From contig JAJRUJ010000068.1 of assembly GCA_024277855.1 (NCBI GenBank), positions 1 through 64,000 on the forward strand: a stretch of 64,000 nucleotides of DNA, read 5' to 3'. Positions 13,768 to 45,823 of this stretch are shown here, in pieces. The notes beneath the pieces are model-generated. The model did not search any database. It was not told the DNA's origin and worked only from the letters and a program-made list of their open reading frames with translations. The translations under genes were made by a program, and so were the position numbers. Position 1 is the stretch's first letter. Each line of letters begins with the position of its first letter. The stretch is from Candidatus Zixiibacteriota bacterium (GTDB lineage: Bacteria > Zixibacteria > MSB-5A5 > WJJR01 > JAJRUJ01).

Positions 13768-13874
13768 TCTGTGTTTGCCCGGGTGATCCTGCCCCGTTTC
13801 CCGGAATAACCGGTTACCGATCAGTACCGACAGACAAAAAAGTCACCTGGCGTTGTATTTTTCGGCGGTGTTCC

Positions 13875-13888
13875 ACCTCTTAAGAGGT
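13875..13888. promoter_or_regulatory. 14-bp perfect palindrome ACCTCTTAAGAGGT, candidate operator
   Basis: Self-reverse-complementary sequence in the intergenic region about 100 bp upstream of the 13986 gene. Confidence 0.35.
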
Positions 13889-13985
13889 AAGGGAAGCAAC
13901 ATCGAGCAGAGGATGTTTGGTGCGGTCATTGAATAAAGTTGAAATGGAAAAAGGTCGTTATAAACCATAGGGAGAGGAGAGGTTC

Positions 13986-15080
13986 ATGCTCAGAAAGGTT
14001 TTGGTGCTGCTTTTGGTTTTACCGTTGCTGGCGTTTGCGGTTGTTGCCCAGGCCGATGATTGTGTGGAAGTTGACTTGGAAATCACACCATATGCCGGTC
14101 CCGGTGATCAGGTCGATTTTTCGTTTGAGTTGACCAACTGCGGAACGGAAGCCGCCTTGGTTGACCTGACTTTCGAGTTTACATTTGAATTCGATAATGA
14201 CACATTGGTGTTTCCCGGAAACACTGATTTCAGTATTCCCCTGCAGGTATCGGTAGGCGCCGGAGAAACTATCAACCGCGCATTCATGACGGTGCTCCCT
14301 CCGGTAGTCCCCTCAGGCACTTACACCGTTTGCGCCGAAGCGGTAATCGGTGAGGCGGTAGACAGCGATTGTGGCGTACTCGTAGTCGAGGGCGTTGGAG
14401 GAACCAGCGCAACGATAGATTTCCCGGATCCCCTGAGTCCGGAAGCGGTCGTTGACGGCCTTAATTTGGTTGCCGCGGCCCAGGAAACCGAATGTGTGGA
14501 AGTAGACATCGAAATCACCTCACCTGTCCAGCCACTTGACGAGATTGCTTTCTCGTTTGAGGTGACCAACTGTGGTACGGAAGCCGGAACCGTTGTCCTC
14601 GACCTGGAATTGACCAGTTCGTTGATCAATGAAAATGTTCCGGTGATCACCGTGGAGTTTCCGCTGGGGGCCGGCGAAACAGCCACCCGTTCATTCACGG
14701 CAGTATTGCCGCCGATCGTACCGGCGGGATCACACGAAATATGCGTTACCGCGACGATCGGTAATGCCACCGCCACCGATTGTACGACTCTGGTAGTTGA
14801 GGAAGGTGGTACACTGAATAAGACGTCACTGGGGCAGAATTATCCCAACCCGTTCAACGCAGCGACAATGATAAACTTCAGTTTGAATAGGCCTTCAGAA
14901 ATCAACCTGAGTGTTTATAATGTGCTTGGTGAAAAGGTGGCGACCGCAGCCAGCGGGTTTTACGAAGCCGGTCCGCATACGGTCAATTGGGATGCGGAAA
15001 ATGTCTCCTCGGGGATGTATTTTTACCGGTTGATCACTAATGAAGGGGTTCAAACCAAGAAGATGATCCTGACAAAATAG
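13986..15080 (+). CDS. Secreted protein with two tandem homologous domains and a YPNPFN C-terminal sorting domain
   Basis: Signal peptide; duplicated ~150-aa unit (CVEVD.EIT...TNCGTEA...VLPP.VP.G); C-terminal LGQNYPNPFNAATMINFSLNRPSEINLSVYNVLGEKV...YFYRLITNEGVQTKKMILTK. Confidence 0.88.
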   Translation: MLRKVLVLLLVLPLLAFAVVAQADDCVEVDLEITPYAGPGDQVDFSFELTNCGTEAALVDLTFEFTFEFDNDTLVFPGNTDFSIPLQVSVGAGETINRAFMTVLPPVVPSGTYTVCAEAVIGEAVDSDCGVLVVEGVGGTSATIDFPDPLSPEAVVDGLNLVAAAQETECVEVDIEITSPVQPLDEIAFSFEVTNCGTEAGTVVLDLELTSSLINENVPVITVEFPLGAGETATRSFTAVLPPIVPAGSHEICVTATIGNATATDCTTLVVEEGGTLNKTSLGQNYPNPFNAATMINFSLNRPSEINLSVYNVLGEKVATAASGFYEAGPHTVNWDAENVSSGMYFYRLITNEGVQTKKMILTK

Positions 15081-15145
15081 CTGGATTATCGGACAGGCAA
15101 TTTGCAGCGTGTTAACATTGGTTTCCCTTCTGTGATAGAAGTGAC

Positions 15146-15183
15146 GGCAGATGGCGGGAGTACTGATTACTCCCGCCACTGCC
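15146..15183 (+). terminator. Strong stem-loop between secreted-protein genes
   Basis: GGCAG(A)TGGCGGGAGTA-CTGAT-TACTCCCGCCACTGCC: 16 bp with one bulged A; additional outer arms TGTGAT 15131-15136 / ATCACA 15190-15195. No strong T-tract, so terminator assignment is tentative. Confidence 0.6.
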
Positions 15184-15217
15184 ATCTGGATCACACTTAT
15201 TTGGTTGGTTGGTGTCT

Positions 15218-17116
15218 ATGAGAACTCGCATCATTTACCGCGGCATACATCTTCTCCTTTTGGCTGTAGCTTTGTTGATTATTACCCCGGTTTTTCCCCG
15301 GGCCGCCGATATCGACACGCTGAAACAAATCGGCGTCCTGGACGGGGAATTGACCGGAGACCAGTTCGGTGTCGCCATTGCCGGGCGTGGTGATCTTAAC
15401 AATGATGGTTTTACCGATCTGATCGTTGGGGCCAACGCCAACGATGAAGGGGGAGACGCGGCAGGGAAGACCTATGTCTACCTGGGCGGATACTCATTTG
15501 ACCTCACCGCCGATTTGACTGTCGTCGGCGGCGCCGCAGATTTTCTCGGCGGTTCAGTGGCCGTTTTGGGCGATGTGAACAATGACACTTATGACGATTT
15601 CCTGATCGGAGCATCGTTTAATTCCGATGTTGCCCTACGCGCGGGTAAGGCGTTGCTGTTCTATGGCGGCAACCCGCCGAACAATACCGCCGACCTGACT
15701 TTCTTCGGTGAGGCGCAACAGGATTATTTTGGCGATCGTGTGGCCAATGTTGGGGATTTGAACAACGACGGTTATGCTGACTGGGCTATCGGTGCGTACA
15801 AGGCCGATACCGATCTCGGGGAGAATACCGGTAAAGTGTATGTATATTTTGGCGGGAGTTCGCCTGACAATATTGTCGACCTGGTGATTCCCGGTTTGAG
15901 CGATGGTGAACGATTCGGTGCATCCATTGCCGGTATCGGGAATTTTAATAACGATAATTATGACGACCTTGTTGTCGGGGCCTATTCTTATGACAATGGG
16001 GTTGATTTGAACATCGGGCGGGCCTACGTCTTCTTCGGCGGTGTGGACATGGATTCATTGCCGGACCTTATCTTTACCGGTGAGTATGCATTCGATTTCT
16101 TCGGGACGACCGTGGCCGCCGGCGGTGATCTGAATAATGATACTTACGACGACGTCGTTATCGGCGCAACCGGCTATGATTATCAGACGTTTCTCGATGC
16201 CGGCAAGATATATGTCTTTTACGGCGGGGCGGCGCCGGATAACACGCCCGACTTTACTTATACGGCTCAACGATCGAACGATGATCTGCTTGGTGCGGCC
16301 GCGACGATTATCGGCGATATAAACGGCGACGCATCTGATGAACTCCTGGTCGGGGCTGAAGATGACAATGAGGCGGCCACCGACGCCGGCAAAGCATATC
16401 TTTTCTATGGACCGCCGTTCTCGGTCGATACCACGTTTACCGGTGAACTGAGCGGCGCATCATTCGGCTCGGCGGTCACCGGAGCCAAGGGGATTGCCGA
16501 CGGATACCAGGGCGCCTTCGCTGTGGGCGCATGGGGGCACAGTGACTCAATCGGCCGGGTATACGTGTATGGTATGACGCAACAGCAAGCCAACCAACCT
16601 CCAGAGCTGGCCGCCATTGACCCGCAATCTGTATTGGAGGGGAACACCCTGACTTTCACTGTCTCAGCATCGGATCCCGATGGGACGGTTCCCGATCTTA
16701 TTGCCGAAAACAAACCTCCCAATTCTTCGTTTACCGATCATCATGACGGTACCGGCACTTTCGACTTTACGCCGGACCTCACTCAGGCCGGGGTTTACGA
16801 AGTGCGATTTATTGCGACAGACGGGGAGCTGGATGATACCGCGTTAGTCGAGATAACCGTGACCGACTCTGAAAATTGCGACTGCGGTTTTTGGGGTGAC
16901 GTTAGCGGTGACGGAGCAATCAACCCGGTGGATGTGGTCTTTATGGTCAATTATGTCTATAAGAATTGGGATTCTCGCGTCCAACCGCCTGCCTGTCCGC
17001 TCGAAGCAGGGGACGTCGATTGTGGCGGGTCGGTAAATCCGGTCGACGTTGTTTATTTTGTCAACTATGTTTACAAGAACTGGGATGTACTGTGCGGTGA
17101 TCCGTGCCTGCCATGA
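15218..17116 (+). CDS. Secreted FG-GAP beta-propeller protein with Ig/cadherin-like and dockerin-like domains
   Basis: Repeated GDLNNDGY.D..VGA / FG..VA units; LEGNTLTFTVSASDPDGT...; C-terminal GDVSGDGAINPVDVVFMVNYVYKNW and GDVDCGGSVNPVDVVYFVNYVYKNW. Confidence 0.9.
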   Translation: MRTRIIYRGIHLLLLAVALLIITPVFPRAADIDTLKQIGVLDGELTGDQFGVAIAGRGDLNNDGFTDLIVGANANDEGGDAAGKTYVYLGGYSFDLTADLTVVGGAADFLGGSVAVLGDVNNDTYDDFLIGASFNSDVALRAGKALLFYGGNPPNNTADLTFFGEAQQDYFGDRVANVGDLNNDGYADWAIGAYKADTDLGENTGKVYVYFGGSSPDNIVDLVIPGLSDGERFGASIAGIGNFNNDNYDDLVVGAYSYDNGVDLNIGRAYVFFGGVDMDSLPDLIFTGEYAFDFFGTTVAAGGDLNNDTYDDVVIGATGYDYQTFLDAGKIYVFYGGAAPDNTPDFTYTAQRSNDDLLGAAATIIGDINGDASDELLVGAEDDNEAATDAGKAYLFYGPPFSVDTTFTGELSGASFGSAVTGAKGIADGYQGAFAVGAWGHSDSIGRVYVYGMTQQQANQPPELAAIDPQSVLEGNTLTFTVSASDPDGTVPDLIAENKPPNSSFTDHHDGTGTFDFTPDLTQAGVYEVRFIATDGELDDTALVEITVTDSENCDCGFWGDVSGDGAINPVDVVFMVNYVYKNWDSRVQPPACPLEAGDVDCGGSVNPVDVVYFVNYVYKNWDVLCGDPCLP

Positions 17117-31356: not shown

Positions 31357-31818
31357 CTATCCACCGGTCACGTCTGAATCATCGTTAATTCGGCATTGCT
31401 CATGTCGACCGTCTGACCTGCGGGCAATAATTACGTGTTCTTCCTCAATATTACCTTCAATGATTCTATAAGACCTTATTCTTGGCTTACTGTTTGCCAA
31501 CAATGAAACGATGACATACGAGACGCTGGAGTCGTGGGCCATCGCCACGTCATGGACCGATGGATATGCGGCGGTTGCCGGGTGCGAGTGATAAATTGCC
31601 ACCGGCTGCAGGCGACGATTGCGAATATCCCTGATGACCTTGAATTGTTGTTTTGGTTCCATGAAGAACGTCGTCGGGCTCTGTTTTATATTGGTCATCC
31701 GATACACCATCGCGACCCGCTTACCCCGACCCGCCAGGAGCCCACAGGCTTCGTTGGGCGATTCTGCTTTCGCATGTTCCCACAACGCGTTGGCATGCTG
31801 TTCGGCCAAATAGAGCAA
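31357..31818 (-). CDS. JAMM/MPN+ (M67) metallopeptidase, Mec-like
   Basis: NEACGLLAG and exact H-S-H-x7-S-x2-D (HSHPATAAYPSVHD). Confidence 0.92.
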   Translation of the reverse strand: MLYLAEQHANALWEHAKAESPNEACGLLAGRGKRVAMVYRMTNIKQSPTTFFMEPKQQFKVIRDIRNRRLQPVAIYHSHPATAAYPSVHDVAMAHDSSVSYVIVSLLANSKPRIRSYRIIEGNIEEEHVIIARRSDGRHEQCRINDDSDVTGG

Positions 31819-31901
31819 GCTTTCCTCCTATAAGTGTGACTGAAATCGCGATTGCCGCAAAGGGCAAGATTCACCTTCGGACTACCGGCGAGGCAAAAGG
31901 C

Positions 31902-32627
31902 CTAGATCCCATCACCATCCAAATTTATTTTTAATGGACGCGTGTGGATTCCACATTCACCGCCGCACTTGCTTGTGCCGATCCACCGGCCGGCGCGTTC
32001 ATCCCCCGTAGTTGAAATCCTGGTGCATGGCGCACAACCTAAAGACCGAAACCCCTGAGCATAAAGCGGATTTACTCGCACCTTGTTTATCGCCAAATAT
32101 TGCCAAACTTCTCTTTCATTCCAGATCAAGATAGGATTGAGCTTGATGAGGTCTCGATCGCGTTCCTCAACCTCCAGGAAATCTGTCCGGGTTCGTCCCT
32201 CGGTACAACGTAAACCGGTAACCCAACACTTGACCTCCATCTCTTCGATAGCCCGCCGTGTAGGTCGAACCTTCAGGATATCACAACATCTGTCCGGATC
32301 GGTGGCGTATAATTGCTTCGGTATCTTCGCATCGTTTTGGAAAACCTGAAGCTCGGGGTATTCGTCGACGGTATCATGCATGAAAGCAACGGTTTCTTTC
32401 GGTTTAAACCGTGTCGTGACAACGAATCCCGAGATCTTAGGAGCCACTTTTTTGGCCATATCCCATACACAAACCGAGTCCTTGCCCAGACTATTGGCGA
32501 CCACCAACCCGGCACCGTATTCCTTGTATGCTTCACCGATCAGGGTCAGTGCGCGATCGACTTTTTGTTTGAAATTTAAGTGATCGACGAGGTATTTCGG
32601 ATCATCGCCATTTTCCATCAAATTCAT
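31902..32627 (-). CDS. cysH: APS/PAPS reductase, Fe-S cysteine type
   Basis: ANSLGKDSVCVWDMA PP-loop-like, RCCDILKVRP, LGCAPCTR (paired Cys), ECGIHTR catalytic motif. Confidence 0.9.
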   Translation of the reverse strand: MNLMENGDDPKYLVDHLNFKQKVDRALTLIGEAYKEYGAGLVVANSLGKDSVCVWDMAKKVAPKISGFVVTTRFKPKETVAFMHDTVDEYPELQVFQNDAKIPKQLYATDPDRCCDILKVRPTRRAIEEMEVKCWVTGLRCTEGRTRTDFLEVEERDRDLIKLNPILIWNEREVWQYLAINKVRVNPLYAQGFRSLGCAPCTRISTTGDERAGRWIGTSKCGGECGIHTRPLKINLDGDGI

Positions 32628-32683
32628 CGAGCATATCTCCCGGTTTATGCTGCCAAAGGGACTCCGCCGCTTGGGGAAATGAC

Positions 32684-33106
32684 CTATATTTGATAGACCA
32701 TGGCTTGCCGTGAAGCTTTCGCCTTGTTCAGAATATCCTCGAAAGTAACTCGATCCAATACCGTTGCCATCGCATTCTCAACTTCCCGCCAGATTTCGGC
32801 AAGCGGGGATTCTTGATTTGTCGGGGAATTCGCCACCGGCAAGAGCGGACCGCCAATCTCCCTGAGCGCTTTACCCAGGTTGATTTTGCCTGGCGATTCG
32901 GCCAGGCGGTACCCACCGTCTTTTCCCCGGATGCTCTCGACAAGTTTCATCCGCTTAAGCTGAATGAGAATCTGGACTAAATACCGCATCGGAATATCCT
33001 GTTCCTCGGAGATTGTCTGGAGGCGAATAGGTTCCTGACTCGGCTAACGCCATGACAGCCCGATTAGAGCTCGGCAGGCATATTCACATCGTGCGGAAAT
33101 CCTCAT
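32684..33106 (-). pseudogene. Disrupted Rrf2-family transcriptional regulator
   Basis: Reading from ATG at 33106: MRISARCEYACRALIGLSWR* then in the same frame PSQEPIRLQTISEEQDIPMRYLVQILIQLKRMKLVESIRGKDGGYRL...; the missing MALAESG segment is in another frame at the TAG (33044-33046). Confidence 0.75.
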
Positions 33107-33245
33107 TTTTGCCCCTCCCGTTCAATGTTTATTATCCTTATCAACTAAGTAAAGTATATAACATTTGATGCTTTCTGTCAAGTAAAAATCGATAAGTTGT
33201 GGGGCCGTCAATACTTACGCGTGAATTCGTCTACGTAAGGTTCGT

Positions 33246-35414
33246 TCAGTTCCGCATCCGTAATAGTCGCAGGCCGTTAAACACCACCAGCAGGGTCGCG
33301 CCGGTGTCAGCAGCGATAGCCATCCATAGCGAAGCCAAGCCCAGCAAAGTCAGGATAATGAACAGCAGTTTAAGACCAAGGGCAAAGGCGATGTTCTGTT
33401 TGATAATGCGGAGTGTTCGTCGCGAGTGCCGGATCAACCAGGGCAACTTGCTTAGATCGTCACTCATCAGCGCGATGTCCGCAGTCTCCAGGGCGGCGTC
33501 GGTGCCCATGGCCCCCATCGCGATGCCGAAGGTTGCGGCGGCCATCGCCGGTGCATCGTTGACGCCATCGCCGACCATTGCCACATAACGGTACTTCCGG
33601 ACCAGGGCTCCAATGGCTTCGACTTTATCCTCCGGCAAGAGTTCACAGCGGAATTCGTCTACACCAGCGGCTTCGGCAATCACGCGAGCGGTACCCTCAT
33701 TGTCGCCGGTGAGCATGATGACTACCTCTACACCGGAATCCTTGATCTTCCGAACAATTGTGGACATGTCGGCACGCAGCTCATCGGCGATACTGATCAG
33801 CCCACAGACATGACTGTCGTTGCCGATCGCGACCACGGTATGACCGGCATTCTCCAGTTCCAGCGCCCGGACATGGACTTCTTCCGTTTCCTGGCCTTTC
33901 TCGTGCATGAACCGATGGTTGCCGATCCAGAAAGTCCGTCCGTCGATCGTGGCCTCAGCTCCCTTGCCCTTAATGGCTTGGAAGTTTTCTGCGGACGGAA
34001 TGGAGACACTTTGTTCCTTCACTTTCCGCAGGATGGCGCGGGCGAGGGGATGTTCGCTGCTGGTCTCCAGGGCGGCGGCTCTTTCCAGGAGTTCGGTTTC
34101 ACTGTGGTCGTTGAGTGGTACAGTCCGTTGCACCTCGGGGCGGCCATAGGTGAGTGTGCCGGTTTTATCCACGGCCAGTGCCCTGAGTCGGCTTACTGCT
34201 TCGAGATATACGCCGCCCTTAATCAACACGCCTTGGCGCGCCGCCGCCGTCAGAGCCGAGACAATGCTCACCGGCGTGGAGATTACCAACGCACAGGGAC
34301 AGGCGATGACCAGAATCACCAAACCTCGATAGATCCATTCGGACCAATTCAGGCCCATCAGTAGCGGGGGCAGCACGGCAATACCGAGTGCCAGGACCAT
34401 CATGATCGGCGTGTAGAAGGTAGCAAAGCGGTCCACCCACTGTTCACTATGTGCCCGTCGGGACTGGGCCTGTTCAACCATATGAATGATGCGGGCCAGC
34501 GTAGTATCGCCCGCTGGTCGGGTGGCTTTGAACTCCACCGCACCATCCTCGTTGATGGTTCCGGCGTAGACTTCGTCGCCGGGATCTTTGGTCACGGGCA
34601 TCGACTCCCCGGTGATGGGGGCTTGGTTAATGGTGGATGTGCCTTTGGCGACGACTCCGTCCAGGGGAATGCGCTCACCCGGGCGGACGAGTACTGTCGC
34701 ACCGACCGGTATATCCTCAACCGACACTTCCTGGATATCGCCCTCGACGGTTTGATAGCGGGCTGTCGGCGGTGAAAGGTCCAATAACTTCCCGATCGCC
34801 CGCCGGGCACGGTCCACGCTCCAGTGCTCAAGCAGGAGCGAAACGGCAAAGAGAAAAGCAACTGTTGCCGCTTCGAACCACTCACCGATGGCCATGGCTC
34901 CGATTACTGCCACGGTCATCAGGAAATTCATGTCGGGTCGAAGGCGGCGAATGGACCGTAACGCCGGGGGGATGACATACCAGGCCCCGGTGATAGTCGA
35001 CATCATGTAGAGAAGCAAAGAAACCAGCGGGAAGACGTGCTTTTGGCCATGGCCGCCGGCGAAGGTGTCCATGAAACTGCCCTGATGAATGATCCAGTGA
35101 GAGAGGAACCCGCTCAACAGCAAAACGCCGCTTAGGCAGGCCATGATCAGTCGTCCGTGACGTGACCAGAATGAAACGGGCTCTTCCTGCAGGCGGCTGG
35201 CCCACGGCGTGGCCTTCATGCCGGTCGCATCAACCGCATTGACCATACGTCCGGGTTCAACGACCTGGGGGTCGTACTCCACGGTCATGCGGGCATTGAT
35301 AACATCAAATTCAAGATCCCGAATGCCCGGCAGGCCGCCGACTTCCCGCCGGAGGATCACAATCTCCTCGGAACAATCCAGCCCCTGCACTTTGAAGTCA
35401 ACTCTTTTCAGCAT
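33246..35414 (-). CDS. Heavy-metal P-type ATPase, Zn/Cd/Co type
   Basis: N-terminal HMA-like VQGLDCSEEIVILRREV, IACPCALVISTPVS, DKTGTLTYGRPEV, GDGVNDAPAMA. Confidence 0.92.
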   Translation of the reverse strand: MLKRVDFKVQGLDCSEEIVILRREVGGLPGIRDLEFDVINARMTVEYDPQVVEPGRMVNAVDATGMKATPWASRLQEEPVSFWSRHGRLIMACLSGVLLLSGFLSHWIIHQGSFMDTFAGGHGQKHVFPLVSLLLYMMSTITGAWYVIPPALRSIRRLRPDMNFLMTVAVIGAMAIGEWFEAATVAFLFAVSLLLEHWSVDRARRAIGKLLDLSPPTARYQTVEGDIQEVSVEDIPVGATVLVRPGERIPLDGVVAKGTSTINQAPITGESMPVTKDPGDEVYAGTINEDGAVEFKATRPAGDTTLARIIHMVEQAQSRRAHSEQWVDRFATFYTPIMMVLALGIAVLPPLLMGLNWSEWIYRGLVILVIACPCALVISTPVSIVSALTAAARQGVLIKGGVYLEAVSRLRALAVDKTGTLTYGRPEVQRTVPLNDHSETELLERAAALETSSEHPLARAILRKVKEQSVSIPSAENFQAIKGKGAEATIDGRTFWIGNHRFMHEKGQETEEVHVRALELENAGHTVVAIGNDSHVCGLISIADELRADMSTIVRKIKDSGVEVVIMLTGDNEGTARVIAEAAGVDEFRCELLPEDKVEAIGALVRKYRYVAMVGDGVNDAPAMAAATFGIAMGAMGTDAALETADIALMSDDLSKLPWLIRHSRRTLRIIKQNIAFALGLKLLFIILTLLGLASLWMAIAADTGATLLVVFNGLRLLRMRN

Positions 35415-35650: not shown

Positions 35651-35986
35651 CTACCGGGCCAGGACCATTTTTTTCGTTTGCGCGTAGTCGTTGACTACGA
35701 GACGGTAGAAATAGACGCCGCTCGACACATCCCGACCGTCGGAATCTTTAGAGTCCCAGGTCACCCGATGCTGTCCCTCAGATAAAACATCATGGGCCAG
35801 CGTCGCCACCAACTCACCAAGGACGTCATAGACCTCCAGCCTGGCCTCACCCGGTTCAGGCAGATAGAACCGGATTTCGGTCGAGGGATTAAATGGGTTG
35901 GGGTAGTTCTGGTCTAACTCGTACCCGGTTGGCATCGTTTCCTCGTGAGATGTTTTATACGCGATTTGCATGATGTCTACCGACAT
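35651..35986 (-). CDS. Stand-alone YPNPFN C-terminal sorting domain, translationally coupled (TAATG) to the upstream secreted protein
   Basis: LDQNYPNPFNPSTEIRFYLPEPGEARLEVYDVLGELV...SGVYFYRLVVNDYAQTKKMVLAR; ATG overlaps the upstream TAA. Confidence 0.75.
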   Translation of the reverse strand: MSVDIMQIAYKTSHEETMPTGYELDQNYPNPFNPSTEIRFYLPEPGEARLEVYDVLGELVATLAHDVLSEGQHRVTWDSKDSDGRDVSSGVYFYRLVVNDYAQTKKMVLAR

Positions 35987-38745
35987 TATTCCATGCACGG
36001 ATTGCACGGGCCGTCACCGATGGATTTATAAACATAGTTGACATACATCACGACATCGACCGGGTTTCTCTGACCATCGCAATTCCAGTCGCCGTTAATG
36101 CCCGGACAGGTGGGAATCTCGACAATCGCTTCGCATTGTCCCTTGTATACGCAGTTGACAATATAGACAACGTCCACCGGATTGATGGCGCAATCCCCGT
36201 TGAGATCGCAAAAGCAGGTGCAATCACACGGTCCGATTGTGATAACTCCCGGCTTGAAGGTGACTTCACCCGTACCCCTTGGCCCGTGATCGGTGCCGTC
36301 AGGTTCGATCATAAATATGGTGGTGATTTCGGTGGTGGCGCAGGCCGTATCGAAGACAAATCGTCCCTCGACTTCCGTGACGCCGAATTCCAGAGTCACG
36401 CATACTCTGCCATCGGGTTCAGCAGGCGTCGAATTTGAGAGACTTGCCGCTTGAATAACAAAATTGTCGGGGGATACACCGTCATAGAGATTTTCCGGTG
36501 TTTCGCAACCCTCGACGGGTCTGACGGCTTGCATCAAATCGGCCCAGCCGGGATTGGACCAGTTCCAGGTCACGCCATTGGCGGGAAGCCGCAGGAGGTT
36601 TGTGCTGTCGTATGGCAATGGGGGAGTCCAGAACGATCCGGCGTCAAGTTCCCTGACGACCAGCGGAACAGCAATAGTATTCAAGTCCGCCGCCCAGTAG
36701 AACGTGAAATCCACTGTCACATCCGGGCAACCCGCATAAACATCTTTGGTCTCTACCTCAACGCGCCAATCATTGATTTGACAAACATCACCGATACCAT
36801 CACTGTCGCTGTCTCCTTGTGTGGGATTCCACGTGTCGGGGCAGTTGTCGCAGAGGTCGCCGACATAATCAATGTCAATGTCTGCCTGGTCCTCATTACT
36901 TATGTCAGGACAGTTATCGCAGAGATCACCCAGAGCATCTTCATCGGAATTTTGCTGGTCCGCATTCGGGACTGTCGGGCAATTGTCGCAGACATCGCCG
37001 ATATTGTCGTCGTCGCCATCTTCCTGCTCCAGATTATAATCATTCGGGCAGTTGTCGCAGAGGTCACCAATATTGTCATCGTCGGCGTCAGCTTGATCCT
37101 CGTTAGCGTATTCGGGGCAATTATCGCAAGCATCACCATAGCTATCAGCGTCTGAATTAACTTGGTCCGCATTCGGGACTGTCGGGCAATTATCGCAGGC
37201 ATCGCCGATATTGTCGCTGTCACCATCTTCCTGCTCCGGATTATAATCGTTCGGGCAGTTGTCGCAAACATCGCCAAAGGTGTCCCCGTCACTGTCGATT
37301 TGATCAGGATTATAAACATCGGGACAATTGTCACATTGCGAGAATATATCGTCCCCGTCATGGTCAGCCACAGAAAGAACATACGCTCGCCCGGCATCGG
37401 CACCACCAGCGTCGTTTAAGCGCGCGCCTATTATCGCATCTTGAATGCCATCCCCATCTACGTCTCCGGCTCCGGATAACGCAAAACTGAATTCATCTCC
37501 CGAGGCTTCACCGGCAAAAATATAATCGGCGTCCGCCGCCAGAACATTGATCGGAAATGGGCCAATTCCACCCCTGAATATATAGGCCCGTCCGATATTC
37601 GATCCTCCGACATCGCTCAAATAACCGCCAACGAGCATGTCAGAATATCCATCCCCGTCGACGTCTCCGAGTTCAGATGCAAGGTCCGGGCCTGCAAAAC
37701 GATCGCCAGTGTTTTCCCCAGTGAAGGTATACATCAATGCCCCGTCCTGGCCTGAGTACACATACGCGCGTCCCGTCGAGCTTGTATAGAGGTCGGCTCC
37801 CACGATGACATCGACAAAGCCATCGCCATTGACGTCCCCCGTGCCACAGACAGATATACCGAAGTGGTCGTTCGCATTTTCCCCGTAGAAAACAAACAGG
37901 GTATCTGTGGTATGGGGAGAGATCACATAGGCAGCTCCGGCATTATTCCCGCTGGCATCATCTCCTTGTTCGCCTACGATGATGTCGTCAAATCCATCTT
38001 TATCTATATCACCCACTTTTTTGACCGGATATCCGAATCTTCCATCGTCATCATCACCGGTAAAGATGTAATCAGCATTTCCCGCGTTGATGGTCATCGG
38101 GAAAGGTCCATATGTTCCGAGGAATACATACACCCGTCCAGCATTATTTCCACCAAGGTCGTTTTCCGATGCTCCGACGACAATATCAGACAAACCGTCA
38201 TTATTCACATCGCCCGCGCCAGAGACAGATGTGCCAAACCAGTCGCCAGCCGTCTCGCCGGTAAGAATGATATCTGCATCAGCGGCATTAATGCTGATAG
38301 GAAAAGGTCCGGATCTTCCCAAAAAGATATAGACACGCCCGTCGTTGTTGAATAACGCAGAGACAACAAAATCCACGCGGCCATCGTTGTTTACGTCACC
38401 GGCCCCGGTCGCATGCATGCCGAAAAGATCTCCGACTGCTTCCCCGGTAAATGTGTAAAGGAGCTGACCATTTTGTCCGGAATAAATATATGCCAACCCT
38501 GCGTCATTCCCCGCTATGTCACTATATGGTGCACCGATGATGACGTCCGCATAGCCGTCTCCATTCACATCTCCAACTCCCGATACTGACTCAGCAAATT
38601 TATCTCCTGCAACAGGACCGGTAAAAACATGGATAAGTGAGCAGTTCATCTCTGTCGCTTGTACTGGCCATGGGGCGAGATAAAAGATGATCATAGTCAC
38701 TGCTAAGACGGTCAGAACGAGAGGTGTGCATTTGCAATTCTTCAT
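35986..38745 (-). CDS. Secreted FG-GAP propeller / thrombospondin type-3 repeat / dockerin-like protein
   Basis: FG-GAP repeats, eight DNCP..YN.DQ.D.D.D..GD.C units, C-terminal dockerin-like repeats; start at MKNCKCTPLVL after a GGAGTATAAA region. Confidence 0.9.
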   Translation of the reverse strand: MKNCKCTPLVLTVLAVTMIIFYLAPWPVQATEMNCSLIHVFTGPVAGDKFAESVSGVGDVNGDGYADVIIGAPYSDIAGNDAGLAYIYSGQNGQLLYTFTGEAVGDLFGMHATGAGDVNNDGRVDFVVSALFNNDGRVYIFLGRSGPFPISINAADADIILTGETAGDWFGTSVSGAGDVNNDGLSDIVVGASENDLGGNNAGRVYVFLGTYGPFPMTINAGNADYIFTGDDDDGRFGYPVKKVGDIDKDGFDDIIVGEQGDDASGNNAGAAYVISPHTTDTLFVFYGENANDHFGISVCGTGDVNGDGFVDVIVGADLYTSSTGRAYVYSGQDGALMYTFTGENTGDRFAGPDLASELGDVDGDGYSDMLVGGYLSDVGGSNIGRAYIFRGGIGPFPINVLAADADYIFAGEASGDEFSFALSGAGDVDGDGIQDAIIGARLNDAGGADAGRAYVLSVADHDGDDIFSQCDNCPDVYNPDQIDSDGDTFGDVCDNCPNDYNPEQEDGDSDNIGDACDNCPTVPNADQVNSDADSYGDACDNCPEYANEDQADADDDNIGDLCDNCPNDYNLEQEDGDDDNIGDVCDNCPTVPNADQQNSDEDALGDLCDNCPDISNEDQADIDIDYVGDLCDNCPDTWNPTQGDSDSDGIGDVCQINDWRVEVETKDVYAGCPDVTVDFTFYWAADLNTIAVPLVVRELDAGSFWTPPLPYDSTNLLRLPANGVTWNWSNPGWADLMQAVRPVEGCETPENLYDGVSPDNFVIQAASLSNSTPAEPDGRVCVTLEFGVTEVEGRFVFDTACATTEITTIFMIEPDGTDHGPRGTGEVTFKPGVITIGPCDCTCFCDLNGDCAINPVDVVYIVNCVYKGQCEAIVEIPTCPGINGDWNCDGQRNPVDVVMYVNYVYKSIGDGPCNPCME
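36781..37332 (-). repeat. Eight tandem 69-bp (23-aa) thrombospondin type-3 units
   Basis: Direct count: eight x 23 aa, from GAC at 37330-37332 to TGT at 36781-36783, in exact register. Confidence 0.93.
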
Positions 38746-38921
38746 TTTATACTCCTTTTTGAATGGGATCCATAACAGCTTCAAAGCATAAAGATGATTC
38801 TGCAACACTCGGCTACTCCTCGCATCTGTGACATCCCTGCTGATTTATAAGCAAGGATGTCTGATTATTGAGATCGTCTATAGGAGAATAGCTACCGAAA
38901 AGTCGGTTTGTAGAAAATAAA

Positions 38922-41213
38922 TTAGGAAGATTCGCGAAGCATTGCTTCAGATATCCACGCGCCATTTATCCAGTATTTTACAGAATCTCGAAGCGTATCG
39001 GTATATTGTTGCCATTCGACGGGTTCTAGTTTCCCGTCAGCGACTAGAAAATTGCGGACTTGGCAGAAATTGTCGGTTAATTTGACATCCATTACCCGTA
39101 AATTTGCGCCCAGACGATAGATGACTTCAGCCTGATCCTTACCCATCGATTCAAACGTCTCGATACAGAGGACGGAGTCGCTTTCGAGGCGAATCATCCA
39201 GGGTGTATTATACAATCTCTGTAAGGACTTACAAACGTCAGTCGAAGGAAAAAGGATATAATATTTCTGGTTGCCCTTTGTCACCCATGATAGATCATAA
39301 TTTTCTGATTGATAAGGAGGAGAGACCCCGTAGCTCGAATCGGGCGTCAATGCAAATAGACAAGTCGCACCTTCTTTATTATTCACTCCCGCGAACACAA
39401 AACCAAAGACATCCGATGCCAACCATACATTTTCTTTTGCGGAGGCACCACCGGCATTAATATACCAGCCAACTTCAGCCCCTTCTGAGTTCAAAATGCG
39501 GATGTGTGTCCGGGACGGATATGATGCGGTGGCCGTCGTAACAATATATGTGGAACCATTCACATCGGTGAAATTAACCACTCCCGGTGAATAGATTTGT
39601 TCGTCGGTGCTATCACCCGGATACTTACCGTATATCGTGGAGCTTTGACTGACTTTCAGTCGGCCTTGATGATCATACACGAACAACCTTACGTTGTCTG
39701 TACAGATATCCTCAAATCTCGGGAGTATTGCTATTTCGTTTTTCCCGTCGCCATCAAGATCACCAATCCGCCATTGGGTTTCGGGCCTTAAATTGGAGCA
39801 ACCATAGTCTATATCCCAGAGACTGACGGAATCGGCATTTGCTACGGTAAATCCAGTATTTGATACCTGTACGTAAGCCGGATTATGATCAAACCAGGGA
39901 TCAAAAATCTTTGGGAATAATATGGCGAGGAACACCCACAAAAGAGCGGCAAGTAACGGGATCTGTATCTTTGCCGCCCGGCTGTATTTAACGGCCTTGC
40001 GCGTTAAAAAAGCACCCAGGCAAACTTTTTCCGACCGGACGATGTTGTGGTTCTCAATCACATCAGCAAACCGCCTATGACCGATGAGAATCAAATTGCG
40101 GCACGGATATTGTTGAGCAAGTGGTTCCAGATATATGCCGGCGTCAGGAAGACACTCCTCCGCCAGAACCAGGTATTTCAACGGCGAGAAAAATGCTCGG
40201 TGAATCTTTGCTGGCAGCGTGTCTTGGTTTACCGGCAACAGGGTGCCCTGTTCGTCAATTCCCCCGGTGAACCCCACCTCGCCGGCGATAAACCGCTCCT
40301 GACGCATGATTTCCAGTTTGAGTAGTTGCGTGTATGTAATTAACGCGGCCGCAAGGCCGATTGAATCTCCGGTGAATGTCTGCTTGCTGTCGGCAATTGA
40401 GAAACGGGCATCATATTGCGCATGATGATTACCTGCACGAGTTCTCGCCCGGAGTTCTTTCACCGCCGCAAGCGAATGGTAGACGACACCGATAAACTTG
40501 TCGTCCGGTGTCTTGATCTGATTGTCAAACGTCACCGTATCGGCGATATTGTCGGTACCCGATTTTCGCTTGCTCGATTCCACCGTGCCGCGCAATTGAC
40601 GGAGTCGGCCGCGATTGTCGGACGTCGACTGATTTTGCTCCACGAACAAACACCAGGCGCGGTCATTATTGACACAAGATCGTTCCGCTCCCCAGCGATC
40701 ACGGACCTCCGTCAGTATTTCGGCGATATCTGGGTGTTTATCGTGAAGTCGGTCTATGAAGAGGTCCAGGGCGTCAAACGCATCAAGGTCTTGTAACTCA
40801 CCAAGAATATCAGGGTCTATCGGATCCCCCCGGACCAATTCCCATGCCTTTTTGAAATCTCCGAGATAGCAGTGCATTGTAATCAGGCGGTATGTCAGCA
40901 AGCGGCCCGATTGTTCCAGCCGCTCGTTTGTCTGATCAGTTGTCAAATGTTCTTTCAGTCGGCCGTGGATTGCCCTGGCTTCGGTAAGCTCATCAATGGT
41001 CAGATCGAAGAGCACCTGCTCATTTATCAACCGCAGGAAAACAAGGCAGTACTCATCAAGATATGTCCGGTAAGATTCCTTTGCCGCAACGGACTGCATC
41101 TGTGGCCAGAACGCAATCAGACGCAATAGCTGCGAATCAGCGACCGACTGAGCGGCCGACTCTGATTTGAGCCGGGCGAAATCCTTGGCGAACTGTACCG
41201 CACCGGGACTCAT
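38922..41213 (-). CDS. Membrane Lon-like (S16) protease with extracytoplasmic propeller-like domain
   Basis: FTGDSIGLAAALITYTQLLKLEIM ... VGFTGGIDEQGTLLPVNQDTLPAKIHRAFFSPLKYLVLAEECLPDA matches the Lon proteolytic-domain pattern (Ser then Lys); single TM IPLLAALLWVFLAILF; C-terminal IGDLDGDGKNEIAILP. Confidence 0.75.
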   Translation of the reverse strand: MSPGAVQFAKDFARLKSESAAQSVADSQLLRLIAFWPQMQSVAAKESYRTYLDEYCLVFLRLINEQVLFDLTIDELTEARAIHGRLKEHLTTDQTNERLEQSGRLLTYRLITMHCYLGDFKKAWELVRGDPIDPDILGELQDLDAFDALDLFIDRLHDKHPDIAEILTEVRDRWGAERSCVNNDRAWCLFVEQNQSTSDNRGRLRQLRGTVESSKRKSGTDNIADTVTFDNQIKTPDDKFIGVVYHSLAAVKELRARTRAGNHHAQYDARFSIADSKQTFTGDSIGLAAALITYTQLLKLEIMRQERFIAGEVGFTGGIDEQGTLLPVNQDTLPAKIHRAFFSPLKYLVLAEECLPDAGIYLEPLAQQYPCRNLILIGHRRFADVIENHNIVRSEKVCLGAFLTRKAVKYSRAAKIQIPLLAALLWVFLAILFPKIFDPWFDHNPAYVQVSNTGFTVANADSVSLWDIDYGCSNLRPETQWRIGDLDGDGKNEIAILPRFEDICTDNVRLFVYDHQGRLKVSQSSTIYGKYPGDSTDEQIYSPGVVNFTDVNGSTYIVTTATASYPSRTHIRILNSEGAEVGWYINAGGASAKENVWLASDVFGFVFAGVNNKEGATCLFALTPDSSYGVSPPYQSENYDLSWVTKGNQKYYILFPSTDVCKSLQRLYNTPWMIRLESDSVLCIETFESMGKDQAEVIYRLGANLRVMDVKLTDNFCQVRNFLVADGKLEPVEWQQYTDTLRDSVKYWINGAWISEAMLRESS

Positions 41214-42067
41214 CGACGGAAAATCCTGATTTTGAGTTCATGATCCGGAGTGGCGAGATCAAACGTCACGGTATCGCCCGGTCCGACATCCGCAAGCTCA
41301 TTGCCGGCGGGCTGGATGATCGCAATTCTGACCCGTCCAAAATCACTCTGCCCGTCCAGAGCGAGAATCTGGAGACTGATTTGTTTCCCGACAGTTTTCC
41401 CCTCGAACCGTATCCGGATACGGTCTTTGTTTGCCGATTCCAGCGTGGTCTCGTCGGCGTATTCAGTGTGCTCGGGGTCGTAGACCAGCGGTTGAAGCGA
41501 AAATACCGCGTCCGGCATCTTGATCTGCCATTTCGCCTGCCGATAATCATCGACCGGGCGGTCTGCCAAAATCGCCCGACCATGATCATCGGTGAGATAT
41601 TCTGCTCCCGACTCGGGTAGTTGCAGTAAGACACCCGCAACGAGGGCCGGATCATCGCTGATTAATTGCAACTGGTCCCGGTTTTCGGCGGCCGAGTGGG
41701 TAATTCGCAGGACAACATCGGGATTTTCGGAATACAGGGTGGCTACCTCTTCCGGGTCGTCTAATCGCCTGTTGGCGCCGTCGGCCGCAAGAAGAACTTT
41801 CCGGTCGGTTCCCGGTTGGATTAACGGGGCAAGATCGATTACCGCTCCTCGGAGCGCGTCTTGGTACAACCGATCGGCCAACTGTTGGGCGACCGCTGAA
41901 TTTTCGATCCCCGGTGATGTCTTCATCGCCTTGAGGTAGGCCTGATAGTCATTTACGTGCTCCCGACACAGTTCGCACTCATCCAGATGACGCCGAATCT
42001 TCTCGGCAGTGACCGTGTCGAGTCGGTTTTCGGAATATTTCCGCAATTCGTCTGTTAGCGGATGCAC
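41210..42067 (-). CDS. zf-HC2 anti-sigma-like protein
   Basis: KIRRHLDECELCREHVNDY (H-x3-C-x2-C); 4-bp overlap with the Lon-like gene. Confidence 0.72.
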   Translation of the reverse strand: MHPLTDELRKYSENRLDTVTAEKIRRHLDECELCREHVNDYQAYLKAMKTSPGIENSAVAQQLADRLYQDALRGAVIDLAPLIQPGTDRKVLLAADGANRRLDDPEEVATLYSENPDVVLRITHSAAENRDQLQLISDDPALVAGVLLQLPESGAEYLTDDHGRAILADRPVDDYRQAKWQIKMPDAVFSLQPLVYDPEHTEYADETTLESANKDRIRIRFEGKTVGKQISLQILALDGQSDFGRVRIAIIQPAGNELADVGPGDTVTFDLATPDHELKIRIFRR

Positions 42068-42088
42068 AATCCACCCCTTTTGATCATA

Positions 42089-43186
42089 CTACTCATCATT
42101 AGGTAGCGACCAGAAACCGAACTTGTCGGCTTTTTTTGCCCGGTGTTGGAAATCCTCAACCGCCTTGTGTATAGTTGTTTCAAAGATATGCTTGTACCCA
42201 TCCAGATATCGGGGATGTTCACTTTTGGGCATCACCTCGCGGAAATATGCCGGGAGGAGGTCCACTCCCCGCGAATAGAGCAAATCCAGCAAATATCGAT
42301 CAACCGCCTGACGGAAACAAATGCCATGATCGGGCGTGATTTTTTCTTTTTCTACAAACCCGGCCAATACCGTTTTCGATATCCAGTTTAAGGTTTCATC
42401 TTTGGCTTTGAGCAGTGTTTTCTCTTTGATTTCCCAGTCGGCCAGATTGGGGGGAAAGGCCCAGATGCTGTTGTCCAGCACATGACGGGAATTAACTACA
42501 ATAACCGCACGGATTAGCTCATGTTTGATCAGCGCATTCCTGACACTGGTGTATTTATTCAGCCAGTCGAATATCCCGTAACACCATTCTGTGTATTTTA
42601 TGTTATCGAGATAGGCTCGGTCGACAATTTCGAGTAACTGGTCACGTTCGATGAACGGGCGATTTGGTCGTAACTGAGATTCATATTTGTGCAGGCAGAA
42701 AATTGCCGTCCGGTCGTCAGTCGAGGAAAGTCGTACGTAATTATGGCCGTTAAGGATATCGCGAAACCTGCGTTTGAGTTTCTCAACCTGAGGATCGGCT
42801 TTGGCACGAATCCGACTCAACTCCTGGCGGATATAGCCAAACAATAACGAGCAATAGCTATCACAAGCCTCAGCCGGTTTCCGGGAATCGATATCATCGC
42901 CGTATTTCTGCCGGAAGTAGCGGAAAATAATCACGAACGGTTTATTTGGTTCACTCCTGAGGAAGCTGCCCAGAATATCCAGCGCCAAATCGTCAAGAGC
43001 CTGCTTTATATTTGACTGCTCAACCAGAGGCAGAGTGTGTCCAAGTGCCCGCAGGTATCGCAGAAAGCCCGTGGTAAACTGGCGAGTCAATTTGAAGAAC
43101 GCATCGAAATGCGCACGATCCTGCGGGCACGCAAGGAAATCCTTGATGATTTGGCCGCACTGATGGCTATCCACGATCCCCGCCAT
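42089..43186 (-). CDS. Hypothetical protein, possible divergent sigma-region-2-like N-terminus
   Basis: First gene of the zf-HC2/Lon-like operon; QALDDLALDILGSFLRS...FVIIFRYFRQKYG weakly resembles sigma region 2; no recognised region-4 HTH. Confidence 0.4.
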   Translation of the reverse strand: MAGIVDSHQCGQIIKDFLACPQDRAHFDAFFKLTRQFTTGFLRYLRALGHTLPLVEQSNIKQALDDLALDILGSFLRSEPNKPFVIIFRYFRQKYGDDIDSRKPAEACDSYCSLLFGYIRQELSRIRAKADPQVEKLKRRFRDILNGHNYVRLSSTDDRTAIFCLHKYESQLRPNRPFIERDQLLEIVDRAYLDNIKYTEWCYGIFDWLNKYTSVRNALIKHELIRAVIVVNSRHVLDNSIWAFPPNLADWEIKEKTLLKAKDETLNWISKTVLAGFVEKEKITPDHGICFRQAVDRYLLDLLYSRGVDLLPAYFREVMPKSEHPRYLDGYKHIFETTIHKAVEDFQHRAKKADKFGFWSLPNDE

Positions 43187-43530
43187 TGCCAGCGTAGTTT
43201 TATCCAGTCTTGGTTATTTGAAGATATGAAATTTTTATGCTGGATCAAACCAATAGTTGGTCGTTACAAGCGACAACAGGCATTACTTGTTATCTCCTTT
43301 GCATAATGCGTGTTATGCGAAACGGTCGGTCAATATGATGGCTCGGTCAGACTGGTTGGGGAGAAGGTTGTTCAGGTTTCTTTCTATCGGTTATCACAAA
43401 TCATTCTGCTTATTAGGCCGTGCTTGCTTTCGGGTTTCTTTTCCGGGGAAGGGAAACCCCGCATCCCTGCAAATCCTGTTTGTAGACGAAGGAGTGATTC
43501 AGGATCGAGGCGCATGTATCACCGCGCGCT

Positions 43531-44490
43531 TTATTGCGTCCCGGTACTTCCGGGCAGTGGCGGACGGGGCCGCCGCAGACATACGTCCACAAGTTCATTA
43601 ATATCTGCGGTGCCGGCGCACATCACGGTATCCGCTCCGCCCCAGTAGATTTTCACCGTTCCATCCGCTTCAGGAACCGCGCCGCAGCAAAACACCACGT
43701 TGGGCACATAGCCGGAACGTTCCCACGGTGACTCCGGTTCGATGATCCACTCATCGGCTACCGCCACGATCCTCGCGGGGTCATCGAGTGCGTGGAGAGC
43801 GGCACCGAGCCGGTAGACAGCACCGTTCATTGTCTGGAAGACGCCATGAAAGATGTGCAGCCAGCCTTGGTCGGTAGCAAATGGTGTGGCGCCGGGACCG
43901 ATCTTGAGTTCGTCCCAGTGGTATGGCATGGGTGCCATCAGCCGTCTCGATTCACCCCAGTGGATGAGGTCGGAAGAATAGGAAATCCAGATAGACCAGG
44001 GGTCAATGCCCGTGTGTGGTCGATCCAGACGCGCATATCGGCCGTCAAAGCGCTGGGCGAAGAGGACGACGTTGCGGTGATCCGCCTGGGTGATCAGGGC
44101 GATACGTTCGACGTGTTGAAAATCTTCCGTCCGGGCCAGCGCAATGCGTACACCGTGTGCCGAATAGGCGCTGTAAGTGATGTAGTAGATCCCATCAATC
44201 AGGCAGATGCGGGGGTCCTCCACTCCAAAGGCCTCGTATTCAGCGAACAGGCCGTCGGCAGCGGGTATCAGCCAGGGATCGGGTCGAACCGTGAAGTGGA
44301 ATCCATCGCCGCTTTCGGCCAGGCCAATGACCGAACGGCCGTTACGCAAATGGGCGCGAAAGAGCATCACGTAGCGGTCGTTATAGCGCGTCACGGCCGC
44401 ATTGTGTACGGTGGCCACCGCGTAGGGCACGTCATCCGGCGTCAGGATCGGATTGTGCTCGTGACGGTGGATAAGACTATAACCGGCCAT
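43531..44490 (-). CDS. Glycoside hydrolase/phosphorylase family GH130
   Basis: HEHNPILTPDDVPYAVATVHNAAVTRYNDRYVMLFRA, FGVEDPRICLIDGIYYITYSAYS, conserved with the paralogue at 45841. Confidence 0.88.
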   Translation of the reverse strand: MAGYSLIHRHEHNPILTPDDVPYAVATVHNAAVTRYNDRYVMLFRAHLRNGRSVIGLAESGDGFHFTVRPDPWLIPAADGLFAEYEAFGVEDPRICLIDGIYYITYSAYSAHGVRIALARTEDFQHVERIALITQADHRNVVLFAQRFDGRYARLDRPHTGIDPWSIWISYSSDLIHWGESRRLMAPMPYHWDELKIGPGATPFATDQGWLHIFHGVFQTMNGAVYRLGAALHALDDPARIVAVADEWIIEPESPWERSGYVPNVVFCCGAVPEADGTVKIYWGGADTVMCAGTADINELVDVCLRRPRPPLPGSTGTQ

Positions 44491-45823
44491 AATCATCCTC
44501 CAGTCGTTCGATGTCGTCTTCGCCGAAATACTTCCCCTGCTGCACCTCGATAAAGGCCAGGTCTGCTTCGCCCACGTTGGCAATGCGATGGAGGGTGCCG
44601 CTGGGGATATCGATGGAATCTCCGGCGGCCAGGCGAAGTTCCGTTTCTCCGGTTTGCGCCACGGCCGTGCCCCGCACGATGTGCCAGTGTTCGGACCGGC
44701 GCCGGTGCTTTTGCAGCGACAGGCGCTTGCCTGGATATAGGGTAATACGCTTGACCTTGTGGTCCAACCGGCCGGAGAGCACTTCGTAAAAGCCCCATGG
44801 CCGCATATTTTCCTGTCCGGCAATGATCTTCTCATAGACGGCGAGATAATCTTCTACCATGCGCCCGGCGGAAAAGCGTGTCTCCGCCTCCTGTCGGCAC
44901 TTGGCCCGTGAGATTTTTGGGACCTGCTTGATGGCGCGCACGGCGTCATCCACATTCTGCACGATAAATCCTGTTTCGCCGTCCTTGATCAACTCCGGCA
45001 AAGAACCCTTGGCAAAGGCCACCACTGGTGTGCCGCAGGCCATGGCCTCTACGACGGAAAGGCCAAATGGCTCGGCGAATGCGATGGGGTGCAACAGCGC
45101 GTAAGCGCCGCCGAGCAGGTGGTTACGTTCCTTGGGACCGACTGTGCCGAGATAACGGACCGCCTGGCCGTCTACCTGTGGTTTGACTTCGCTTGCGAAA
45201 TAAGATTTATCCTGCACCGGACCGGCCATGACCAGGGGCATACTCGCCGCCCGGGCGATGGCAATCGCTTCGGCTGCGCCCTTGTCCGGGTGCATGCGCC
45301 CGAAGAACAACAGGTAACTTCCTGCCCCGGGCTGAAAGGTAAATTGTGCGAGGTCAATACCGTGATAGACGGTGGCGGCATAATCGAGCCGCTCACTCCG
45401 GTCGGCGTCACTGATGGATACATAGGCGGTTTTGCTGTTGTAGCGTTCGTATGCCGGCAGGATGGCCGGAGAGGAAAAGCCGTGGATCGTTGTTACCACC
45501 GGAGTGGAAACCAGGCACGAATAGCTCAGCGGCAGGAAATCGAAGTGATTGTGGATGATGTCGAAATCATCCGCGTGTTCAAACACTTCCGCGATATGCA
45601 TGCATTCCCACACCTTGGGGTCCAGCGACTTGTCTTCTTCATAGGGACGGGGGCAGACGGCGCGCAAACGTGCGGCAGTGTGTGAATCGGCCGTGGCGAA
45701 CAGGGTGACATCATGCCCCCTCGCCGCCAGCCCGTCCGCGAGTAAAGCGACCACCTGTTCCCAGGGACCATAACCTCTGGGCGGTGTGCGCCAGGCAATG
45801 GGTGAGATCAAGGCAATTCTCAT
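44477..45823 (-). CDS. GT4 glycosyltransferase fused to type II phosphomannose isomerase-like cupin
   Basis: GT4 motifs (GRMHPDKGAAEAIAIARAA, EPFGLSVVEAMACGTPVVAFAKGSLPELI); C-terminal RPWGFYEVLSGRLDHKVKRITLYPGKRLSLQKHRRRSEHWHIVRGTA. Confidence 0.9.
   Translation of the reverse strand: MRIALISPIAWRTPPRGYGPWEQVVALLADGLAARGHDVTLFATADSHTAARLRAVCPRPYEEDKSLDPKVWECMHIAEVFEHADDFDIIHNHFDFLPLSYSCLVSTPVVTTIHGFSSPAILPAYERYNSKTAYVSISDADRSERLDYAATVYHGIDLAQFTFQPGAGSYLLFFGRMHPDKGAAEAIAIARAASMPLVMAGPVQDKSYFASEVKPQVDGQAVRYLGTVGPKERNHLLGGAYALLHPIAFAEPFGLSVVEAMACGTPVVAFAKGSLPELIKDGETGFIVQNVDDAVRAIKQVPKISRAKCRQEAETRFSAGRMVEDYLAVYEKIIAGQENMRPWGFYEVLSGRLDHKVKRITLYPGKRLSLQKHRRRSEHWHIVRGTAVAQTGETELRLAAGDSIDIPSGTLHRIANVGEADLAFIEVQQGKYFGEDDIERLEDDYGRL

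Follow-up and report, generated by a model that had tools for sequence, protein, structure and literature searches.

We examined a minus-strand locus of Candidatus Zixiibacteriota (Zixibacteria) in which three adjacent genes, encoding an all-helical protein (gene 1), a zinc anti-sigma-type protein (gene 2) and a membrane Lon-like protein (gene 3), are followed by the gene of a secreted surface protein (gene 4). The locus lies in a window of 64 kb, by which we mean the whole stretch of DNA that was analysed; the genome it comes from amounts to 3.07 Mb. On balance, we consider it likely that the locus constitutes a transmembrane switch made of a sensor-protease, an anti-sigma-type protein and a sigma-type factor, and dedicated to the adjacent surface protein. 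The three open reading frames (ORFs) of the triad, of 365, 285 and 763 amino acids (aa), had been proposed in an initial annotation of the window and were found at the same coordinates, with the same 4-bp overlap between genes 2 and 3; a promoter-like motif at two positions in the locus and the fourth gene came in addition to it. The annotation had not recognised the architecture as a described one, and no description was found in the literature (open-licence papers only). The elements on which the argument depends are the following:

42089-43186, minus strand: gene 1, first gene of the triad, 365-aa soluble protein, all-helical according to its model, putative sigma-like promoter-recognition factor
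42098-42131, minus strand: site A, degenerate motif copy AGCCGACAAGTTCGGTTTCTGGTCGCTACCTAAT within the 3' end of gene 1, upstream of gene 2 (7.1 bits)
41210-42067, minus strand: gene 2, GTG start, 285-aa soluble protein with an N-terminal zinc anti-sigma-type domain and a beta-rich C-terminal region
41966-41989, minus strand: zinc motif His27-x3-Cys31-x2-Cys34 of gene 2
38922-41213, minus strand: gene 3, membrane Lon-like protein of 763 aa whose ORF shares 4 bp (ATGA) with gene 2
38883-38916, minus strand: site B, consensus motif TTTCTACA (38909-38916), 17 nt, then CTATT (38887-38891), upstream of gene 4
35986-38808, minus strand: gene 4, 940-aa secreted protein recognised by its signal peptide and domain matches, likely start ATG at 38745

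The protease fold of gene 3 is a genuine S16 (Lon) one, and its Ser-Lys dyad is conserved. The Lon domain was not found when Pfam was searched with the 763-aa protein alone; it was revealed by the family profile and by the fold. A profile built from a 38-member alignment matched archaeal Lon domains among PDB sequences (hmmsearch, E = 2e-5), Pfam Lon_C was recognised in 10/38 family members (best E = 3e-5), and the AlphaFold model (mean predicted local distance difference test score, pLDDT, 91) was matched by Foldseek to Lon proteolytic domains with E-values down to 8e-9 and a target-normalised template-modelling score of about 0.8 (E. coli Lon). The S16-like domain suggested by the initial annotation was thereby confirmed. 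Only six columns are invariant in the 38 homologues (G202, G282, S284, G323, K336 and R339). Ser284 and Lys336, located where a GDS serine region and a lysine region had been predicted, are kept in all 38, in a family whose members diverge to as little as 23% identity. When the profile is aligned to archaeal Lon 1z0b, both residues coincide with the GDS and Lys motifs of the latter. Because the Walker A motif (GxxxxGK[ST]) of an AAA+ module is absent from all 38 members, gene 3 has an S16 domain without an AAA+ engine and is predicted to encode an ATP-independent cytoplasmic protease. Its parts are arranged as follows:

40674-41213, minus strand: N-terminal all-helical cytoplasmic region, residues 1-180 (secondary structure of the model)
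40023-40670, minus strand: S16 Lon-like protease domain, residues ~182-397 (profile, fold, invariant dyad)
codon 40362-40364, minus strand: invariant Ser284 of the S16 domain, in the motif F-T-G-D-S-I-G
codon 40206-40208, minus strand: invariant Lys336 of the S16 domain
39918-39974, minus strand: single transmembrane helix, residues ~414-432 (transmembrane prediction and model helix), N-terminus in
38925-39881, minus strand: extracytoplasmic beta-rich ectodomain, residues ~445-763 (model)
39726-39764, minus strand: FG-GAP-type motif DLDGDGKNE of the ectodomain, residues 485-493

The single transmembrane helix, which had also been proposed at the outset, was found in nearly all gene 3 members extending that far. 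It is preceded by 5 Lys/Arg and followed by 0; under the positive-inside rule, the positive charge on its N-terminal side therefore predicts that the S16 domain is in the cytoplasm and the C-terminal 320 residues outside, as a candidate sensor. A propeller-like C-terminal region had been suggested as well. Its beta-rich character stood, and the DxDxDG-type motif is largely conserved among gene 3 homologues; the propeller itself is plausible only, because the FG-GAP-type matches, which were the only ones given by Pfam for the C-terminal half, fall below the cut-off.

The presence of an anti-sigma-like partner was likewise borne out. The H-x3-C-x2-C zinc motif of gene 2 (His27, Cys31 and Cys34) is kept in 31/31 homologues. 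Searched alone, the protein matched Pfam zf-HC2 below the cut-off (E = 0.0036), whereas zf-HC2 was recognised in 13/31 members of the family (best E = 1.8e-5). The family profile matched zinc anti-sigma domains of known structure (3hug, E = 9e-4; RsiW, E = 0.002; DdvA, E = 0.006), and the NCBIfam matches of the family were to RsrA, ChrR and generic anti-sigma models. Judged from the sequences, the zf-HC2 assignment is thus weak for the single protein and firm for the family. No transmembrane segment was found in gene 2, and its beta-rich C-terminal region matches nothing known.

Homologues of the 763-aa protein are present in 42/149 related genomes, most of the genomes compared being fragmented metagenome-assembled genomes (MAGs); homologues on genome contigs were retrieved with a narrower alignment as query. 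By record titles, their source is Candidatus Zixiibacteriota. A full module with a consensus site was also seen in a MAG labelled Candidatus Abyssobacteria (L119, QZKI01000069.1), reflecting horizontal transfer or mis-binning. The order sigma-like/zf-HC2/Lon is complete in 39 of the 47 loci having gene 2. In seven of the incomplete loci the contig breaks off; five are flagged as such, and the contigs of L103 and L107 stop no more than a few hundred bases from gene 2. Only one locus (L099, from genome G018) shows a true loss: in this decayed copy (G018:C85, 4199-6228), unrelated sequence containing RHS-like genes takes the place of the terminal part of gene 2 and of the whole of gene 3. Gene 1 is the first gene of the triad in every case and is essentially confined to this module, and in 20/40 cases gene 3 directly adjoins gene 2 or shares 4 bp with it.

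The triad is tied to the gene downstream of it. This gene is co-directional in 34/38 loci and almost always codes for a signal-peptide-like N-terminus, and a dockerin or a type-IX-type sorting tail is encoded by 18/38 downstream genes, compared with 21/344 in the background (Fisher P = 2e-10). In the window, gene 4 codes for a signal peptide, about seven FG-GAP repeats, thrombospondin type 3 repeats (encoded by 69-nt tandem repeats at 36839-37321) and a dockerin, and is followed by one further element:

35651-36007, minus strand: type-IX-secretion-type C-terminal sorting domain in a frame different from that of gene 4 (frameshift or separate short ORF)

The sorting-domain ORF meets the dockerin-ended 940-aa ORF by a TAATG overlap; in many homologues, body and tail form one ORF. 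The out-of-frame tail may reflect a frameshift, a sequencing error or a coupled short ORF, and the window copy may be partly decayed or misassembled at this point.

The gap after gene 3 carries a bipartite motif, TTTCYACAAA...(T)xGK..CTATT, with boxes 17 nt apart (TTTCYACA-N17-CTATT). It obtained an expectation-maximisation score of 317, compared with 93-96 in two shuffled sets (the controls being two shuffles per set). Of the strong sites (at least 15 bits) in 1.44 Mb of fetched sequence, 33/44 lie directly after gene 3, a count that expresses specificity and is not an independent discovery, the position weight matrix having been trained on sites after gene 3. Independently of that training, the same motif (tCtaCAa...tttgG...CTAt) emerged de novo from the gene 1/gene 2 junctions, and 17/48 junctions exceed the maximum of 274 control windows. 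Site A of the window itself lies above the control 95th percentile (1.4 bits) and below the control maximum (9.4 bits). Within a locus, sites A and B resemble each other more than sites of different loci do (0.65 versus 1.32 mismatches; 0 of 5000 permutations), a resemblance to which relatedness contributes; one subfamily, for example, combines CTCCGGCA with GGCGGCA-type sites. Since the covarying sites sit in non-homologous sequence, one of them inside a coding region, a shared trans-acting factor is their simplest cause. A dedicated bipartite promoter-like motif with ~17-bp spacing was thus found at the putative target genes.

The exact consensus pattern occurs once in the 3.07-Mb genome of the window, at site B, and relaxed matches (2 mismatches) in that genome are no more frequent than in the control. 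In 129 genomes, full-consensus matches sit after gene 3 and the remainder equals the reversed-pattern control; a widespread regulon is therefore unsupported. Outside the modules the consensus site is practically absent, and each module thus seems to serve as a private line to a single gene. Four paralogous modules with different promoter variants were seen in one genome (G005; L049, L052, L060 and L061) and are candidates for parallel insulated channels. Two further sites deserve mention. A very strong motif copy (32.6 bits; L067, 12309-12342) lies upstream of a genuine extracytoplasmic function (ECF) sigma operon directly behind a module, a possible cascade of two sigma-peptidase systems, and a second consensus site (L038, 7175-7208) lies behind the fourth gene of another module, where no obvious same-strand gene follows and a short gene or RNA is possible. 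The best motif ahead of gene 1 is weak, sigma-70-like and only slightly above shuffles, and autoregulation of gene 1 by the bipartite motif was rejected.

In the switch that we favour, gene 1 would recognise the TTTCYACA-N17-CTATT promoter and would itself probably depend on an ordinary promoter of the sigma-70 type. To judge from its domain and its place in the operon, the soluble gene 2 protein would bind gene 1 and keep it inactive in the cytoplasm. Gene 3, with its computed fold, dyad and topology, would be a single-pass inner-membrane protein whose ectodomain controls the cytoplasmic S16 Ser-Lys protease. Gain or loss of a ligand at the ectodomain (perhaps the adjacent surface protein, or a substrate of that protein) would lead the protease to cleave gene 2, and this cleavage would release gene 1. 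The freed factor would then act at site B on the surface-protein gene as the output, as the computed sites and their covariation suggest, and at site A on genes 2 and 3 as negative feedback.

Several observations weigh against this switch. No match of gene 1 to sigma factors was obtained in Pfam, NCBIfam or PDB profile searches or, with hhalign, against sigma profiles built from relatives, and Foldseek reached sigma-S only at E = 4.8-9. In addition, the window's own site A is weak, the ectodomain has a single FG-GAP motif below the Pfam cut-off, and the sorting tail of the window's gene 4 is out of frame. The link between the protease and the anti-sigma protein is one that we infer, and gene 3 lies downstream of site A, so that it may be an output of the system rather than its trigger.

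The identity of gene 1 is the point at which another explanation competes best. No sequence or fold similarity to regions 2 and 4 of the sigma-70 family was detected, a fold search against viral structures found nothing, and gene 1 was ruled out as a recognisable sigma factor on homology. The 'possible sigma-like' label of the initial annotation thus cannot rest on homology, because every sigma comparison remained without a match. Gene 1 could instead be a DNA-binding activator or an adaptor, with the motif serving as an operator for it or for another regulator. Such a role would agree with the lack of sigma homology by every method applied and with a model (pLDDT 88.8) whose C-terminal end is one long helix (321-353), not an obvious helix-turn-helix. 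We regard it as doubtful: the boxes have a -35/-10-like spacing and do not form a palindrome, the partner of gene 1 is a zinc anti-sigma-type protein and the sites covary with the module subfamily. Indirect support for a sigma-type role of gene 1 comes from the dedicated promoter-like motif, which occurs twice in the locus and which gene 1 itself may bind.

The position of site A upstream of genes 2 and 3 also accommodates a second explanation, in which the Lon-like protein, probably a member of the regulon, is its output or an adaptation factor, genes 1 and 2 sense by other means and the protease acts on another substrate, for example the nascent surface protein or another membrane protein; that gene 3 cleaves gene 2 is, after all, our inference. 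This explanation seems unlikely to us. Gene 3 strictly co-occurs and is operon-coupled with the anti-sigma gene, the positive-inside topology places the protease in the cytoplasm together with the soluble genes 1 and 2, and the combination of a sensor-like ectodomain with an S16 domain standing alone follows the logic known from CalpL (PMC11417357).

The closest mechanism on record is indeed that of CalpL/CalpT/CalpS in type III CRISPR systems, where the anti-sigma factor is cut by a Lon domain fused to a sensor (PMC11417357, PMC12751052). Like the module described here, Calp is a three-protein set of an S16 Lon-domain protease, an anti-sigma factor and a sigma factor and, as proposed for gene 3, its sensor-fused Lon domain without an AAA+ engine triggers a transcriptional response. 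CalpL, however, senses cyclic tetra-adenylate (cA4) through SAVED and serves CRISPR immunity, whereas the module has a transmembrane helix and an external beta-rich domain, without SAVED/CARF or CRISPR; its anti-sigma protein is of the zf-HC2 type, its gene 1 is without recognisable sigma homology and its apparent target is a surface protein. The gene 3 family profile reached the CalpL structure in PDB only at E = 0.35. By analogy, the module would work like Calp with an external sensor, yet it is not a Calp.

It is very improbable that the module is a Calp-like antiviral system in which infection triggers the protease and the surface protein is encoded nearby by coincidence. The PADLOC models CRISPR-Lon, CARF-Lon and SAVED-Lon did give matches, which are weak and confined to the S16 domain, but no CARF or SAVED domain was found in gene 3, no cas-like genes were present among the neighbours examined, which are metabolic, and the tie of the module to the secreted protein is strong. 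A repeat search of 24 kb (28000-52000) returned no CRISPR-like array, and on this ground a CRISPR/Calp setting was ruled out. Finally, some other Lon-fold domains, for instance in RadA or ChlI-type proteins, are regarded as non-proteolytic, but that the S16 domain of gene 3 should likewise be a non-catalytic scaffold is scarcely credible given a serine and a lysine that are both invariant across so divergent a family.

The proposed switch also differs from other systems that it recalls. RsrA, RsiW, ChrR and DdvA share with gene 2 an N-terminal H-x3-C-x2-C anti-sigma-type domain and a gene located beside that of a (putative) sigma factor; gene 2, unlike these zinc anti-sigma factors, is soluble and has a large beta-rich C-terminal region. 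In the RseA/DegS/RseP and RsiW/PrsW pathways, an envelope signal reaches the sigma factor via proteolysis of the anti-sigma factor. There, a membrane-spanning anti-sigma factor is cut by site-1 and site-2 proteases, whereas in the module it is the protease that has both the membrane anchor and the ectodomain, beside a soluble anti-sigma-type protein. Proteins of the YlbL type (transmembrane segment-PDZ-Lon) and LonB/LonC resemble gene 3 in their S16 Ser-Lys dyad and in membrane anchoring or ATP independence. The S16 domains of the YlbL type are thought to face outward, and we know of no member of these groups with a C-terminal FG-GAP ectodomain or encoded beside an anti-sigma gene. Sigma, anti-sigma-like and peptidase genes also occur together in the L067 operon mentioned above (12543-16478; ECF sigma, small anti-sigma-like protein and TPR-CHAT protein). 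Its peptidase differs in being of the CHAT (caspase-like) type, and Pfam finds in it no transmembrane segment or FG-GAP ectodomain; further variants of the sigma-anti-sigma-peptidase pattern thus exist within this phylum. In P. gingivalis PorA-PorXY-SigP (PMC7712824), a surface protein with a type-IX tail is functionally linked to a sigma pathway. This case is cited as a precedent only, that pathway using a two-component system and not a protease/anti-sigma pair.

Beside the module, a beta-mannooligosaccharide phosphorylase (GH130) and a glycosyltransferase-cupin fusion, both pointing to mannan metabolism, are encoded at 43531-45823. On the other side, at 31357-35414, lie genes for a JAB-domain protein, a PAPS-reductase-type protein, an Rrf2 regulator and a heavy-metal P-type ATPase, probably a sulfur/metal cluster. 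An Rfam scan of 38000-44000 gave no match, and an RNA element at the locus was ruled out on that basis.

More tentatively, the module may represent a new trans-envelope switch, in which an ATP-independent Lon acts as a transmembrane receptor that cuts a soluble zinc anti-sigma protein and frees a promoter-recognition factor not detectably related to sigma factors, each copy serving one adjacent surface protein via its own promoter variant. To our knowledge, CRISPR Calp, which responds to a second messenger inside the cell, is so far the only case of a Lon-type protease relaying a signal to transcription. If the proposal is true, a Lon-type protease would be a one-piece membrane receptor relaying an outside signal to transcription. 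We know of no genetics in Zixibacteria; the TTTCYACA-N17-CTATT motif makes the sigma-type identity of gene 1 and the whole circuit directly testable in a laboratory host. Several genomes with more than one copy of the module and different promoter variants, such as G005, suggest that these bacteria may run parallel private channels for sensing at their surface.

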